Shown here piece after piece: positions 28,902 to 55,605 of a stretch of DNA of 64,000 nt. Each line of letters opens with the position of its first letter. Position 1 is the stretch's first letter. Under the pieces are notes generated by a model that ran no database searches, had not been told where the DNA came from, and saw only the letters and a program-made list of their open reading frames with translations. The stretch is taken from positions 1 through 64,000 of the forward strand of contig NZ_JAIUFY010000007.1 of the NCBI RefSeq assembly GCF_020165855.1, written 5' to 3'. This DNA is from Celeribacter litoreus (GTDB lineage: Bacteria > Pseudomonadota > Alphaproteobacteria > Rhodobacterales > Rhodobacteraceae). The position numbers and the translations under genes were made by a program.

Positions 28902-29381
28902 CTCCATCGACATCTCGTGCCACGCCATCCCGCCGTGATCCGATTCCGATGGTTGTCGGTAAGTATACCCGAATTTCTGATAGAGCGGGACGTGGTGCTC
29001 TTTGCACATGAGGTGGATCGTGGCCTTGCCCATCTGCCTCATCCGCGCGACGAATTCGGTCATCAGCGCGGTCGAGAGCCCCTGCCCCTGACGTGCGGGA
29101 TCGACGACGACGGACATGATCACGACGTTCGGCGCGGCGGGGTCGTGGCCGATCAGCTCCTTGAACGCCTCATTCGACATCTCGACCTCATAGGCGCAGC
29201 CGCAGTTGATAAAGCCCGCGATGTCCCCATCGATCTCCAGAACGAGAAATCCGTCGGGATAGGTGGCAATCCGCGTCGCGATCTTTTCCAACGTCGCGGC
29301 CTCGTCGCCCTCATAAGCGGTGCTTTCAATCTCATAACAACGGCCCGCGTCCGACGGTCGGGCATTTCGAAAGATGTGCAT
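28896..29381 (-). CDS. GNAT family N-acetyltransferase
   Basis: About 161 residues from the ATG at 29381. The acetyl-CoA pyrophosphate loop is visible as DPARQGQGLSTALMTEFVARM near residue 95, after the beta-strand VVIMSVVVD. Upstream in-frame starts (29411, 29441) would add residues that read like leader and not like the fold. The acceptor substrate is unknown. It converges with the CPBP gene and stands alone. Confidence 0.82.
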   Translation of the reverse strand: MHIFRNARPSDAGRCYEIESTAYEGDEAATLEKIATRIATYPDGFLVLEIDGDIAGFINCGCAYEVEMSNEAFKELIGHDPAAPNVVIMSVVVDPARQGQGLSTALMTEFVARMRQMGKATIHLMCKEHHVPLYQKFGYTYRQPSESDHGGMAWHEMSMEL

Positions 29382-29516
29382 AGGGTCGTCCAAATCTCTT
29401 GAAGCGTTCCACATCATTGCCGCGTCTCCGAGGGGAGGCAAAGGGAATATCCTTGAAAAACGCGCCCCAACGTTGCGAAATGGGGATCACACCCACATCA
29501 GAAAGCAGCCCGTCTC

Positions 29517-30581
29517 ATGTCCGATCCCATTCCGTTCTTTGACGGCCACAATGACTTCCTGCTGAAGCTGATGAAATCCCCCGCCCCGCGCGCGGAGATT
29601 TGGCTCGGGGATGGAGCCATCGGGCATCTTGATCTCGCCCGCATGAAGGCGGCGGGGTTTGTTGGCGGGTTGTTTGCGATCTTTGTGCCTCCGCGCAGCA
29701 CCGGAAAGCCGCCGGATTTCAAAACCGCGATGGCGAACCCGCCCTATGCGATGCCGATGCCGCCGGCGCTCTCTCACGACGTGGCGCAGCCTGACGCGCT
29801 GACCATGGCGGGATTGCTGCACTGGATGGAGCGCGCCGCGCCCGAGAGTTTCCGTGTCTGCCGCAATGCATCCGACATCCGCGCGGCGATTGCCGACGAC
29901 GTGATTGCGGGCGTCATGCATATGGAGGGGGCGGAGGCGATTGGGCCTGATCTCGATAGTCTTTACCTCTTTTACGAGATGGGCTTGCGGTCCCTCGGCC
30001 CAGTGTGGAGCCGCGACACGATCTTTGGCTACGGCGTTCCGATGGCCTTTCCCGGCACGCCGGACATTGGCCCCGGCCTCACGGAAAAGGGCAAAGACCT
30101 CATCCGCCTCTGCGATGAAATTGGCATCCTCATCGACCTGTCGCACCTCAATGAGAAAGGATTCGACGATGTGACGGCGACCTCGACCGCACCGCTGGTC
30201 GCGACGCACTCCAACGTCCACGCCCTCTGCCCCAGCCCGCGCAACCTCACGGACCGGCAATTGCACATGATCCGCGAGCGCGGCGGGATGGTCGGATTTA
30301 ACTTCGCCACCTTCTATATCAATGAGGACGGGAAGGCCGCGAGTGACACCGGATGGGACGCGATGCTGCGCCATATCGACTATCTGATCGAGACGCTCGG
30401 CGAGGATCACGTTGGCCTCGGGTCTGACTTCGACGGCTGTGTGCTGCCCGATCTGATCGGCGATGTGACCGGCGTCCCGCGTTTGTTCGACGCGATGAAG
30501 GCCCACGGCTATGACGCGCCCCTCCTCACGAAACTCGCGCGGGAGAACTGGCTCTCTTGCATTGAACGGTGTGTGACTTGA
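29517..30581 (+). CDS. Membrane dipeptidase (peptidase family M19)
   Basis: A 354-residue renal-dipeptidase-like metallopeptidase. Metal-binding motifs are DGHNDFLL (HxD near residue 10), MHMEGAEA (bridging Glu near 130), VATHSNVHAL (near 225) and LGSDFDG (near 300). No signal peptide is evident, so it is probably cytoplasmic despite the family name. Its stop overlaps the start of a ChaC-like gene. M19 enzymes cleave dipeptides including Cys-Gly, the product of ChaC action on glutathione. Confidence 0.9.
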   Translation: MSDPIPFFDGHNDFLLKLMKSPAPRAEIWLGDGAIGHLDLARMKAAGFVGGLFAIFVPPRSTGKPPDFKTAMANPPYAMPMPPALSHDVAQPDALTMAGLLHWMERAAPESFRVCRNASDIRAAIADDVIAGVMHMEGAEAIGPDLDSLYLFYEMGLRSLGPVWSRDTIFGYGVPMAFPGTPDIGPGLTEKGKDLIRLCDEIGILIDLSHLNEKGFDDVTATSTAPLVATHSNVHALCPSPRNLTDRQLHMIRERGGMVGFNFATFYINEDGKAASDTGWDAMLRHIDYLIETLGEDHVGLGSDFDGCVLPDLIGDVTGVPRLFDAMKAHGYDAPLLTKLARENWLSCIERCVT

Positions 30582-31270
30582 CCACCCCGACCCTGCGCCT
30601 GACCCGTGCGCTGGTCGACCGCCTCCCCGCCCGAACGGACGAACGCGGACCCGCGCTCGTGCAGGAACCACCGGATGAGTTCTACGAAGACACCGCCGCC
30701 GATCTACTCGCGCGGCTCGCGTCGAAGGATGAGGTCTGGATTTTTGCCGCAGGCTCTCTGATCTGGAATCCGCGCATGGAGGTGGCCGACCGCCGCGCGG
30801 CACACCTCACAGGATGGCAGCGCGCCTTTTGCATCCTCGATCGCCGCTATCGTGGCTGCCCGAGCAATCCGGGCCTCATGATGTCCATTGATCGTGGCGG
30901 GAGCTGTTCCGGCGTCGCCCTACGGATGGACACTGGCGACGATCCACACGCCGCGCTCGTGAGCCTATTGAAACAGGAACCGCCCCTGCCGCCCGAACTC
31001 GTCGCCGCCGAAACAGACGCGGGCGTGGTGCAGGCCGTGCTCTTCAACATAGATGAGAGCTTTCCGCTCTACCAACCCGAGCCACCCGTCGACACCCTTG
31101 CCGACATTCTCGCCTCTGCTATCGGACATGTGGGCACGATGGCGGACTACCTGCTCAACACCGTCACAGAACTCGAACGCGCAGGCGTTCACGACGCGCA
31201 TCTCTGGCGGTTGCAAGAAATGGTCGCAGAACGGCTAGAGGCCCTGCCTGATCCGAGCGGGCAAACGTGA
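30569..31270 (+). CDS. Gamma-glutamylcyclotransferase (ChaC-like)
   Basis: About 233 residues. The ChaC motif FAAGSLIWNPRMEV (near 66-79), which corresponds to the YGSL substrate loop, is followed by LTGWQRAFCILDRRYRG and PSNPGLMMSIDRGGSCSGVA. The start is either the GTG at 30569 or the TTG at 30578; both overlap the dipeptidase stop, so translation is coupled. ChaC enzymes release 5-oxoproline from glutathione and leave Cys-Gly for the dipeptidase encoded just upstream. Confidence 0.87.
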   Translation: MCDLTTPTLRLTRALVDRLPARTDERGPALVQEPPDEFYEDTAADLLARLASKDEVWIFAAGSLIWNPRMEVADRRAAHLTGWQRAFCILDRRYRGCPSNPGLMMSIDRGGSCSGVALRMDTGDDPHAALVSLLKQEPPLPPELVAAETDAGVVQAVLFNIDESFPLYQPEPPVDTLADILASAIGHVGTMADYLLNTVTELERAGVHDAHLWRLQEMVAERLEALPDPSGQT

Positions 31271-31299
31271 TCAGACGCTGCTGACTTTTCTCTGATTTT

Positions 31300-31398
31300 C
31301 GAGGAGGGGGAGGAAGGAAACGGCAACCCCAGGGAGGAGGAGGAGGGGTTGCCGTCAAATCCATGAAGCTCAAGGGAGGAGGACGAGCTTCCCTTACT
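31300..31398 (-). ncRNA. Candidate CcsR/cuckoo-type small RNA with two anti-SD hairpins
   Basis: Read on the minus strand, a promoter TTGGCG-17 nt-GATAAG (31428-31433 and 31405-31410) precedes two strong hairpins. The first (31365-31391) has a 7-bp stem GAAGCTC/GAGCTTC with CCTCCTCCC in its loop. The second (31320-31355) has an 11-bp stem ACGGCAACCCC/GGGGTTGCCGT with TCCTCCTCCTCCCT in its loop, followed by TTTCCTTCC. Paired loops exposing CCUCCUCCC define the alphaproteobacterial CcsR/cuckoo small RNAs. The ends are estimates. Confidence 0.72.
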
Positions 31399-31430
31399 TT
31401 ATGCCTTATCTCTTCGCTGCGAACCATCGC

Positions 31431-31451
31431 CAATGCTGCAAAGCAGCATTG
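31431..31451. repeat. 9-bp palindrome upstream of the small RNA
   Basis: CAATGCTGC and GCAGCATTG flank AAA, a perfect hairpin that overlaps the putative -35 region of the small RNA promoter on its upstream side. It could be an operator or the end of a read-through transcript. Confidence 0.5.
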
Positions 31452-31559
31452 CGCTGTGTGCAAGTGTCCTTACGTAAACGACTACCTTGGGGGAACGGTC
31501 CGGCGCGGCGTCAAAGTGGTCTCTCGCACCTGCCAAAACGGGCGCCCTGACGTGCGGAC

Positions 31560-31643
31560 AAAAAAAAGACCGAGCTAAGCTCGGCCTTAAGTCCAACAGG
31601 GAGGTAAAAAGCGCCTCGAGTTTCCTCATGTCGCCCTCTACTG
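31560..31643 (-). ncRNA. Candidate small RNA with anti-SD segment and intrinsic terminator
   Basis: On the minus strand, TTGATA (31672-31677) and TAAATA (31649-31654) are 17 bp apart, a good housekeeping promoter. About 80 nt later a hairpin GGCCGAGC-TTA-GCTCGGTC ends in eight T residues (31560-31567). The transcript contains the anti-Shine-Dalgarno stretch ACCTCCCTG. An ATG inside it opens a frame that runs through the terminator, so a coding role is unlikely. It could also be the tail of the upstream CPBP transcript, which would then share this terminator. Confidence 0.65.
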
Positions 31644-31757
31644 CGCTCTATTTATGTGCGGTTTAAAAACTTATCAAGTAAAACAGTCCTGCAATTCGCA
31701 CATGGCCGTTATGCGTTACTGCACTGCAACAATGCAGGGCGTCTCACCTGCGTTGAA

Positions 31758-32420
31758 TCAGAACGGCCGGACGACATTGCCCGAATAAAAGAACATGCCC
31801 ATTCCGAAGGTAAACAACACATTCCCCGCGACGGAATGCAGAATCACCGCGAGCGGAAAAGACCGCCGCACCTCATAGGCCCACGCGAACACAATCCCGC
31901 CGCCAAAGGTCATGAGCGCCACCGCCCAGTTCCAATAGAGCAGATGCGCGAGGGAAAAGAGCGCAGCATTGAGCGTGAGCGCCACAGGTTTGTGCGGCAG
32001 GATGCTCTCGTAGCGGCGGAAGAACAGAGGGCGAAACACGACCTCTTGCGGCAGGGCCGACACGAGCGGGTAAAGCAGCATGATCGTCAGCCAAAGCGCA
32101 GGATTGCTGCGCAGCAATGCAAAGATCGCTGCGGGTTCCGTCACCGACAAAATCCCCCAAGACACGAGCGCCGTCGCACCCCCAACCCCGAGGATGAGCT
32201 TGACCGGAATCCTTCGACGGCCTTGAAGCAACTCCCGCCACTGAAACCCCGGCGTCAGGTGCAAGAGCACGATCCCGAGACAGGTGGAGAGCGCGAGCAC
32301 GGTGAACATCCGACCGGGCGGCAAGAGAACCGCGACGAGGATCGGAAGGATCACAAAGAACGACAGGAACTCGGCCCATAGCAGCCGGCGGTCGAATGCC
32401 ATCTCAACACGCTCCGTCAT
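31758..32420 (-). CDS. CPBP family intramembrane metalloprotease (variant motif)
   Basis: A 220-residue membrane protein with about six hydrophobic helices. The first CPBP motif reads LPQEVVFRPLFFRRYE (near 125), with QE in place of the usual EE, then FSLAHLLYWNW (His near 158) and AVILHSVAGN (near 195). The Gln-Glu variant is known within the superfamily, so activity is plausible but not certain. It overlaps the XdhC gene stop by 4 bp, hence co-translated with it, an odd functional pairing. Confidence 0.75.
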   Translation of the reverse strand: MTERVEMAFDRRLLWAEFLSFFVILPILVAVLLPPGRMFTVLALSTCLGIVLLHLTPGFQWRELLQGRRRIPVKLILGVGGATALVSWGILSVTEPAAIFALLRSNPALWLTIMLLYPLVSALPQEVVFRPLFFRRYESILPHKPVALTLNAALFSLAHLLYWNWAVALMTFGGGIVFAWAYEVRRSFPLAVILHSVAGNVLFTFGMGMFFYSGNVVRPF

Positions 32421-33349
32421 CTGGCCCGACCGTGATCGAGGACCTGCGCCAATACACCCACGGCCAGATCACGCGGCGATTTCGCGCGGCGGATATAGCC
32501 GAACGGTTGGACCATCCGCGCGATGTCGGCCTCGCTCAGCCCGTTGGCTTGCAACGCATAGCTGCGCAAGGTGCGCGCGCGTTCGCTGCCTTGGGCACCG
32601 ATGTAGAAGGCATCTGACCGGAGCGCATGGGACAGCAGAGCCGTCTCCCGATCATGATCATGGAAAAACACCGCGACCGCCGTGCGCCCGTCGGGCGTCT
32701 CCCCCTCCGGCCAGGCATTGCCAATGAGGAGATGTTCGTAGGGCCCGGATGCATCGCTGAGATAGGTCGTGACAGACAGGTCCGCCGCCTGCGCAAGACG
32801 GGCAAAGTGGCGCGGTTCTTCGCCGCTGCCAAAGATGAGCGCCCGCAATCTCGGTTTCACGGTCAGGATCAAACTGGCCCCGTCCGCCACCCCCGCGACC
32901 AGTCGGCCCTCTTCCGAGACGGACACCGTGACAGGGGTTCGCGCCTGCAAACGTGTCTGCATAGAGGACAGCACCTCCGGCTCCGGCGTCGGGATCAGCG
33001 TCACATCGAGACCGCCACCGCAGGGCAGTTTCAAATCCATAAACGGAGACCCCGCGCCGTAGCGGAGCGTCTTTCCCGCCCCGCTCTGCAGCGCCTCAAT
33101 CCCGTGGAGCGCCACATCTTCGTCGATGCAGCCAGAGGACAGATTGCCGAACCGCGCGCCTGTGTCAGCCACCGCCATCCCCGCGCCGACGGGCCGATAG
33201 GACGTGCCCTCAACCCCCGTGATCAGACAGAGACAGTCGGCCTCCCCCGCAAAGAGCGGCGACAGAGCCAGATCGCTTTCGCACACGGAGACGACACGCG
33301 GGCGCGCGTCGATGCCTTGGAGCAGCTCGTGGTCCTTGTGCATCTTCAT
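32417..33349 (-). CDS. XdhC/CoxI family molybdenum hydroxylase maturation protein, copy 1
   Basis: A 310-residue protein. The N-terminal XdhC domain has LITGVEGTSYRPVGAGMAV and GNLSSGCIDEDVALH (conserved Cys near 70), and the C-terminal Rossmann-like domain has ALIFGSGEEPRHFARLA and FYIGAQGSERAR. XdhC proteins load the sulfurated molybdenum cofactor into xanthine dehydrogenase-type enzymes. The target is probably the IorAB enzyme encoded 1.2 kb away. A close paralogue lies at 57.1 kb. It is followed by the CPBP gene with a 4-bp overlap. Confidence 0.87.
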   Translation of the reverse strand: MKMHKDHELLQGIDARPRVVSVCESDLALSPLFAGEADCLCLITGVEGTSYRPVGAGMAVADTGARFGNLSSGCIDEDVALHGIEALQSGAGKTLRYGAGSPFMDLKLPCGGGLDVTLIPTPEPEVLSSMQTRLQARTPVTVSVSEEGRLVAGVADGASLILTVKPRLRALIFGSGEEPRHFARLAQAADLSVTTYLSDASGPYEHLLIGNAWPEGETPDGRTAVAVFFHDHDRETALLSHALRSDAFYIGAQGSERARTLRSYALQANGLSEADIARMVQPFGYIRRAKSPRDLAVGVLAQVLDHGRAR

Positions 33350-33482
33350 CGTCTGGGTCTCCGTCGCTATTCAGGCTTCACCGCAGAGCGGTGCTCACAC
33401 TATTAGATGGGGCAAACTTTCGGGATGATTAGGCACGAATTGCAAAAAGCGTTTATGTGACCCACTCATGAATGCCCGAGGC

Positions 33483-34187
33483 TCAGGCGTCCGGCGCCTC
33501 GACGTCGTAGCACAGGTGCACCGCGCCCTTCTCCAGCGTATCAATGCTGCGGAACCGGATGTTCGCCTGATCGCGAAGCCCCTCCGGCCCCGCTTCAAAG
33601 AGCGTATGGCTCCCCGTCACGCCACTCACCGACGGCAAAATCACGAGACTGATCCGGTCCACCGCATGTGCGCGCATGAAGTGCCCGTTGATGATCCCGC
33701 CACCGGCGACAATGTAATGATCCCCGCCGAACACCTGTGCCAGACGGTCCAGCAGCCAGAGAGGATCGACATGGCGTTCCGGCGCGACAATGTAGGAAAT
33801 CCCGCGCTCCGCCAGTTCACACAGATGGCTGTTCGAAATGTTCGGCCCGAGCACCATCACGAGATGATCCCCGTCGAGCATCCCGCTCTTCCAATGCAGC
33901 TTGCCATCCGGATCAACCACCACGGCGAGGCTCTCGGTCGCGTCCTGCGCCATATAGCAACAGCGCGCCGCCTCATCGTCTTCTTGCGGTTCACGCGCGT
34001 CACCGTCGGCATAGGGCTCCATCGTCGTGCGCCCGACGATATAGCCACGCGCGCCGAGGTCGCGCAGGATGTCGAAATAGATGGTCTCGTAGTCAGAAAA
34101 CGGGGCGTCGGTGGAGGGGCTCCATTCGGCAACGTCCACGCGCCCGTCAAGCGGGCTGAGCATGTGGCAGGTCACTAAGGGTTTCAT
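33483..34187 (-). CDS. RibD C-terminal domain / dihydrofolate reductase-fold protein
   Basis: A 234-residue reductase of the RibD_C type. MKPLVTCHMLSPLDGRVD at the N-terminus, RGYIVGRTTMEPYA near 50 and IVAGGGIINGHFMRAHAVDRISLVILP near 165 are the substrate and NADPH-binding elements. It may reduce a pterin- or riboflavin-type substrate, but the family is broad. A GAGG site precedes the ATG. It is a single gene on the minus strand, divergent from iorAB. Confidence 0.84.
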   Translation of the reverse strand: MKPLVTCHMLSPLDGRVDVAEWSPSTDAPFSDYETIYFDILRDLGARGYIVGRTTMEPYADGDAREPQEDDEAARCCYMAQDATESLAVVVDPDGKLHWKSGMLDGDHLVMVLGPNISNSHLCELAERGISYIVAPERHVDPLWLLDRLAQVFGGDHYIVAGGGIINGHFMRAHAVDRISLVILPSVSGVTGSHTLFEAGPEGLRDQANIRFRSIDTLEKGAVHLCYDVEAPDA

Positions 34188-55314: not shown

Positions 55315-55605
55315 TTCATGTCCTTTCAATACGATCAGTGGAATTTAGTATGCGCCTAGCGGAGGGAGTAGACCCCCATTCCACAAGGCTGCTTTGCAGG
55401 TGCAGCATGACTCGTTTGCGCTATCACCGCTCTGCGAGCCATGTGCGAAAACGCGGATTTTCATTGAATAACCGGATCATAGGCGCACCGCTTGCCTGTG
55501 ATCCCCTCTTCTCCGACCGACCCGCCGTTGCGGGTCTCAGAGAGTTTCCAAAACCAGGACGCGGCCCGGAGCGCCGCTTTTCCAGAGACTGAAAAGGATG
55601 ACACC

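Follow-up and report, generated by a model that had tools for sequence, protein, structure and literature searches.

The interval between a ChaC gene and a CPBP/Rce1-like gene of Celeribacter litoreus carries two minus-strand units that are probably extra trans-acting anti-Shine–Dalgarno small RNAs, the upstream one (unit 1) most likely being a regulon member of VtlR/LsrB, a LysR-type regulator. Judged by its sequence, unit 1 is a SorY paralogue and the second SorY copy of this genome, and unit 2 is a single CcsR RNA independent of a DUF1127 host transcript. The units are further members of the known SorY and CcsR families, and the new lead is the link to VtlR: a LysR regulator is encoded beside sorY and boxes precede both RNA loci, which would provide a single candidate switch for SorY and CcsR and tie these RNAs to the VtlR–AbcR–DUF1127 circuit of Rhizobiales.

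The window (the whole 64,000-nt stretch of DNA that was analysed) comes from a 3.66-Mb genome. Both units lie in a 487-nt gap between the ChaC and CPBP/Rce1-like genes, in which both strands were read:

30569–31270, plus strand: ChaC (gamma-glutamylcyclotransferase-like) gene, convergent neighbour (PF04752, 8.1e-25)
31315–31397, minus strand: unit 2, CcsR/cuckoo small RNA, single unit with two hairpins (RF02791, full length, 39.5 bits, E 3.9e-8)
31319–31356, minus strand: hairpin 2 of unit 2, 12 pairs, loop exposing UCCUCCUCCUCCCU (ViennaRNA; both-side changes in 8 of 8 modelled pairs of helix 2)
31365–31391, minus strand: hairpin 1 of unit 2, loop exposing CCUCCUCCC (ViennaRNA; both-side changes in 6 of 6 pairs of helix 1)
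31405–31433, minus strand: weak promoter-like TTGGCG-N17-GATAAG of unit 2 (by eye; sigma-70 scan negative)
31560–31588, minus strand: intrinsic terminator of unit 1 (terminator scan: 10-pair stem and a run of 8 T)
31560–31636, minus strand: unit 1, SorY-like small RNA of roughly 77 nt (RF02651, model positions 1–83, full length, 46.9 bits, E 2.9e-8)
31589–31606, minus strand: anti-Shine–Dalgarno core UACCUCCCUGUUGGACUU of unit 1 (identical to the Rfam SorY consensus)
31649–31678, minus strand: promoter-like CTTGAT ... TAAATA of unit 1 (CTTGa ... TA..T is conserved across 78 aligned SorY/SorX upstream regions)
31758–32420, minus strand: CPBP/Rce1-like membrane protease gene, same-strand neighbour upstream (PF02517, 5.4e-13)

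A sequence-only reading had placed two minus-strand small-RNA units in this interval, which strand reading, folds and Rfam matches confirm. It had taken them for a tandem of CcsR RNAs. This is not borne out, since unit 1 is SorY-like: it matches RF02651 with 46.9 bits (genome-wide E 3.9e-8), less strongly SorX (RF02784, 33.7 bits) and suhB/MmgR (RF00519, 28.3 bits), and shows no CcsR1 match up to E 10. The more general proposal of CcsR/cuckoo-type anti-Shine–Dalgarno RNAs therefore stands for the kind of RNA and for unit 2 (RF02791), and falls for unit 1. The sequence of unit 1 includes ACCTCCCTG and has the SorY arrangement of the core ACCUCCCUGUUGGACUU followed by an intrinsic terminator (10 pairs, 8 T), as had been read for one of the two RNAs, and its fold has a z of -3.34, one of 200 shuffles being equally stable. 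The gene upstream of unit 1 is CPBP/Rce1-like, not the ompR-like gene whose 3′ UTR yields SorX. The alternative of unit 1 as a 3′-UTR RNA of the CPBP gene has less in its favour, since a box and a promoter-like element of its own precede unit 1. By eye, a short reading frame inside unit 1 with its ATG at 31629 was weighed and set aside, having no stop ahead of the terminator.

Unit 2 displays the two hairpins with CCUCCUCCC loops that are typical of CcsR/cuckoo RNAs, its loops exposing UCCUCCUCCCU and UCCUCCUCCUCCCU. Its genome-wide RF02791 match has an E of 5.2e-8, and it also matches ar14 (RF02344, 35.6 bits). The two strong hairpins with exposed loops seen earlier in the letters are reproduced by ViennaRNA (fold z -4.51; none of 200 shuffles equally stable). 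Its second stem had been considered an 11-bp likely terminator; it has 12 pairs by ViennaRNA, and the terminator scan rejects this stem with the trailing UUUCCUUCC, so unit 2 is without a clear intrinsic terminator. The promoter scan found no sigma-70 consensus promoter at either unit. The earlier remark that no DUF1127 gene accompanies the RNAs also holds: a profile built from five DUF1127 proteins found nothing, with E up to 10, among the 99 open frames of at least 25 aa at 29300–33500, and the locus of unit 2 is therefore not a CIN1 locus. Such absence is not unique, since 11 of the 59 distinct CcsR loci examined in the family (among the matches listed) have no upstream DUF1127.

Neither unit reaches the Rfam gathering score (SorY 46.9 vs 111; CcsR1 39.5 vs 65.3), at which the window has no Rfam match at all, and the E values of about 3–4e-8 come from permissive filters. 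The covariance search suggested by the sequence-only reading thus returned RF02791 for unit 2 and RF02651 for unit 1, in both cases below these scores. At E 0.001, 63 of the 71 family genomes match SorY and 58 match CcsR1, while the gathering score is passed in only 1/71 (SorY) and 4/71 (CcsR1); with so few genomes passing these narrow cut-offs, sub-threshold scores weigh little against membership.

The hairpins of CcsR covary across the family. A structure model built from 11 Celeribacter units, which unit 2 matches by construction because the window was included, found 111 units in 31 sources. Of the cells in an alignment of 108 distinct rows, 94.8% pair, and both-side changes occur at every one of the 14 modelled pairs. 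The covariation score is 0.562, as compared with 0.191 (sd 0.009) for shuffles and no more than 0.136 for slid controls; the rows had been aligned to fit the structure, a procedure that works in its favour. Single-sequence folding left the CUCCUCC motifs unpaired in 355 of 363 cases. Conservation in relatives, on which the earlier proposal had been made to depend, is hence found for the family (108 rows) and not for this genomic site.

These data bear on the idea that the units are chance C/T-rich hairpins, which is hardly conceivable. It could draw on the nine-base motif CCTCCTCCC, which alone shows no genomic enrichment (38 copies vs 39 for the backwards-read control pattern), but same-strand pairs of this motif at most 50 nt apart occur at two genome sites only, this locus and the canonical CcsR locus, and the covariance matches (E about 3–4e-8), the family covariation and the fold z of -4.51 all speak against it.

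The same genome has a canonical SorY at C9:38312, adjoining a LysR gene, and a canonical CcsR locus at C8:841.4–841.7k, where a DUF1127 gene (PF06568) is followed by three CcsR pairs; the window pair therefore represents extra copies. Two congeners hold copies of unit 1 (85% identical) at other genomic sites, and the CPBP orthologues of the same two (69–70% identity) have no such RNAs beside them, a third congener giving a CPBP match of 40 residues only. The DNA search with unit 2 across 19 congeners yielded, besides itself, canonical DUF1127–CcsR loci only, in 2 of the 19. Among the matches listed, with coordinates compared by eye, none of the other genomes of the 71 in the family showed a SorY–CcsR pairing elsewhere. 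When plasmids were searched for the locus, two records matched it over short stretches of about 55 bases (89–90% identity).

From this distribution, and from box scores lying below the canonical ones, one might regard both units as decaying duplicates without function. We find this improbable: core, loops, stems and terminator are intact, and unit 1 keeps its 85% identical copies in two congeners. In the alignment of 17 congeneric copies of the unit 1 type the core is changed in two (L053 and L054), whose divergent terminator stems are maintained via both-side changes. In these SorY-like RNAs (L053 at G014:C34, L054 at G016:C15) the core is altered to UACUUCCUUGUUGAACAU, and L054 is situated about 8 kb from a SorY copy resembling unit 1.

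The link to VtlR emerged from the sequences ahead of the RNAs. When 78 SorY/SorX upstream regions were aligned with no prior (L142, which has a short upstream sequence, and L077, a Bacteroidota chance match, being left out), the pattern Gc.ATgc-N7-GCaTa.cgG..aTGc emerged together with CTTGa. On the other strand this box resembles the Brucella VtlR motif, printed as CAATGCAGCCATGCA in the available part of PMC12595884, and it also resembles the Agrobacterium box GCAT-N3-TG-N3-T given in the available part of PMC7486931. Used untrained with at most 4 mismatches, CAATGCAGCCATGCA occurs in 35 of 79 upstream regions (80 loci minus L142) vs 154 of 3925 other sequence windows and 20 of 395 shuffles.

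A 28-position matrix was then trained on 60 vtlR–SorY upstream regions of other genera, Celeribacter (L123) being excluded. By leave-one-out, 58 of the 60 reach a score of 13 and 53 reach 20 (median 28.5). The held-out set comprised the 38 listed loci not used earlier, and all 28 vtlR–SorY loci in it, which may include close relatives of training loci, have a box at 108–122 nt. No box was found in the SorX loci (0/17: 0/14 with a best score of -5.9, plus 0/3). The CcsR survey covered 61 loci from 57 of the 58 matching genomes (G022 omitted; L303 without cluster; the R. sphaeroides locus, present twice as L225 and L315, counted once). Among the matches listed, a site of at least 13 precedes 45 of 48 distinct DUF1127–CcsR loci (46/49 undeduplicated) and 7 of the 11 loci lacking DUF1127; 450-nt segments of the surveyed CcsR loci attain 13 in 7.6% of cases, the boxes themselves included.

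The two boxes of the interval obtain equal scores with this matrix:

31438–31465, minus strand: VtlR/LsrB-type box of unit 2, containing GCAATGCTGCTTTGC of the palindrome AATGCTGC-TTT-GCAGCATT (score 13.2, rank 3 of 127,946 window positions)
31700–31727, minus strand: VtlR/LsrB-type box of unit 1, GCAGTGC-N6-GCATAACGGCCATG (score 13.2, rank 2 of 127,946 window positions)

The box of unit 1 is located 122 nt ahead of its ACCTCCC core, within the training range of 105–146 nt (57 of 60 within 105–123). This canonical spacing makes control of unit 1 by VtlR likely as far as sequence can tell, though 13.2 is low against the leave-one-out median of 28.5 and far under the scores of the canonical boxes in the same genome (25.1 and 29.5). 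It also weighs against the preferred reading that the copies of unit 1 in the two congeners offer no more than a weak, oppositely oriented site (8.3), that the CPBP orthologues of these congeners lack the RNAs, and that another site of the window scores 13.6. The latter, the best VtlR-type site of the window (55383–55410, minus strand), precedes a 50-aa ORF (55314–55165, minus strand) that has no Pfam match and is absent from 19 of 19 congeners, and which may represent a further target, either a small protein or an RNA.

The box of unit 2 stands 84 nt before the first CTCCTCC, which is short compared with the 117–157 nt (six loci) and 263 nt (one locus) of the DUF1127-less loci scoring at least 13. 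Among the matches listed, 4 of the 11 DUF1127-less CcsR loci have no such site, and three of these (L285, L286 and L287), which are extra single CcsR units in two genomes also holding a CcsR row, are in the situation most similar to that of unit 2. Because of the atypical spacing and of these similar extra units without a site of 13, the control of unit 2 by VtlR is less settled than that of unit 1, and the lack of a clear terminator counts against the preferred reading as well.

The two units could instead come from a single precursor that starts at unit 1, partly reads through its terminator and has the CcsR RNA cut out by RNase E, as in ccaF1–CcsR. In R. sphaeroides the CcsR RNAs arise by processing of a precursor, and at unit 2 the promoter-like sequence is weak, the sigma-70 consensus is absent and the box spacing is odd. 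This arrangement is nevertheless doubtful in view of the strong terminator of unit 1 (10 pairs, 8 T) and of the top-ranking box that unit 2 has for itself.

The regulator itself is encoded next to the canonical SorY. The list comprises at least 118 loci, the first 80 analysed initially and 38 others serving as the held-out check. In 89 of the 118 listed loci with ACCTCCCTGTTGGACTT (61/80 and 28/38; three seen in part) a VtlR orthologue lies directly upstream on the same strand, the remaining loci having an OmpR tail, i.e., SorX, in 17 (14 + 3) and neither in 12 (5 + 7). When 30 of the 32 own LysR hits were compared with A. tumefaciens LsrB (PDB 9HH1), the gene that directly precedes the canonical SorY came out on top (39.6% identity, 242 bits, the runner-up reaching 136). 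In the tree, LsrB and seven Rhodobacterales proteins group in a single clade (99/98), to which 29 other own LysR proteins do not belong. R. sphaeroides 2.4.1 presents the same picture: a vtlR orthologue (78% identity) upstream of SorY with a box of 31.3, and a box of 26.9 preceding the CcsR row. Its SorY match falls at 1,632,645 vs 1,632,642 as printed in the available part of the source. The trxB neighbourhood in which vtlR resides in Rhizobiales is not its site here, as vtlR adjoins sorY; at L069 (G000:C8), trxB is flanked by lrp on one side and a sulfate adenylyltransferase-like gene on the other.

Dyads of the GCATAGC kind are frequent among LysR sites, and the assignment to VtlR derives from sequence, so that the box might belong to another factor, a different LysR-type regulator or a nucleoid protein recognising this dyad. 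We regard this as unlikely, given that the published VtlR motif matches untrained, that the box adjoins the vtlR gene itself and that it precedes DUF1127 genes, which are VtlR targets in Brucella according to the available part of PMC12595884. Against the control by VtlR that we favour stand two published observations: the accounts of R. sphaeroides, in their available parts, ascribe control of SorY and CcsR to RpoHI/RpoHII and not to a LysR regulator, and LsrB of S. meliloti does not regulate the adjoining AbcR RNAs. Control by VtlR and by RpoHI/RpoHII can coexist. A partial literature search, which does not prove absence, revealed no paper joining VtlR/LsrB with SorY/CcsR.

In a class-wide sample of 115 genomes, almost all from different families, 64 have regulator matches at E 1e-45 or better; leaving the own genome aside, identity is 33–78%, and the weakest of these matches may represent other LysR proteins. 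LsrB is stated to be unique to Rhizobiales in the available part of PMC11975290; the common clade with Rhodobacterales proteins (99/98) and the matches in 64 of 115 genomes call this into question. For the best 30 loci of the 64 matching genomes, two of them from the family of the window, CCTCCCTGTT follows on the same strand, at most 600 nt downstream, in 21, vs 0/30 upstream and 0/30 antisense. The box is found downstream on the same strand at 14 of the 30 loci, all 14 with the core, and upstream at none; 9 of the 30 lack the CCTCCCTGTT core and 16 lack the box. Many of these downstream RNAs (L321–L348), spread across alphaproteobacterial families, have GUCUCCCAGACGUGAAGCCUCCCUGUU and a terminator in common and are weakly covered by Rfam: 17 of the 30 loci were compared with it, and 10 of these matched SorX, SorY or suhB at E 0.01, in every case with a score under the cut-off. 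The search for ar15 (RF02345), which we take to be AbcR, produced 0/115 and is uninformative, as the control genomes likewise gave no match.

One can suggest from this distribution that VtlR/LsrB may be an ancient dedicated activator of anti-Shine–Dalgarno RNAs across the Alphaproteobacteria, a proposal whose chances we hold to be evenly poised. Here vtlR, the box and a CCUCCCUGUU RNA would form a module in many families (SorY being its Rhodobacterales form), the same box would drive the DUF1127–CcsR loci of Rhodobacterales and stray copies such as the window pair, and AbcR, SorY, SorX and perhaps suhB/MmgR would be branches of one circuit.

As for the window pair, we infer transcription, VtlR binding and mRNA targets as follows. 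Unit 1 would be transcribed from its own promoter, activated by the LysR-type VtlR/LsrB through the predicted box, and would end at its own terminator, while transcription of unit 2 may begin at a box-bearing promoter of its own or reach it by read-through out of unit 1. Both RNAs would expose C/U-rich stretches copying the 16S anti-Shine–Dalgarno sequence. Pairing of these stretches with the ribosome-binding sites in stress or metabolic mRNAs would reduce translation of the targets or make them less stable. This pairing would probably involve Hfq, by analogy with the available parts of the published work on SorY and CcsR. In R. sphaeroides, SorY is expressed in a stress-dependent manner and has takP mRNA as a target, according to the available part of the source. 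The extra copies may either raise the RNA dose or add a separately controlled source.

Compared with SorY of R. sphaeroides (RF02651), unit 1 has the same full-length match, UACCUCCCUGUUGGACUU, terminator, CTTG element and box spacing, but it is situated away from vtlR as a second genome copy, with a weaker box and a 5′ hairpin that departs from the Rfam consensus. SorX (RF02784) loci have the core in common with SorY; unlike unit 1, SorX is cut from an ompR-like mRNA, according to the available part of the published account, and its loci have no box (0/17). Unit 2 has the two hairpins, CCUCCUCCC loops and covarying family stems of CcsR1/cuckoo/ar14 (RF02791, RF02344), whereas it is a single unit and not a row, with neither a DUF1127 (CcaF) gene nor a clear terminator.

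The closest parallel to the regulator and its RNA is the VtlR/LsrB–AbcR module of Rhizobiales, where a similar box occurs and the small RNA genes are likewise directly downstream of vtlR, as described for AbcR in A. tumefaciens and S. meliloti in the available parts of PMC7486931 and the S. meliloti source. The proteins differ in their cysteines, since the Rhodobacterales VtlR proteins compared (L196, L316 and nine named loci; n=11) have 0–2 (at most one in 10 of 11, two in 1 of 11), while LsrB has four in the aligned part; with so few cysteines, the redox sensing of LsrB may not apply to Rhodobacterales. The RNA itself also differs, being AbcR in Rhizobiales and SorY in Rhodobacterales.
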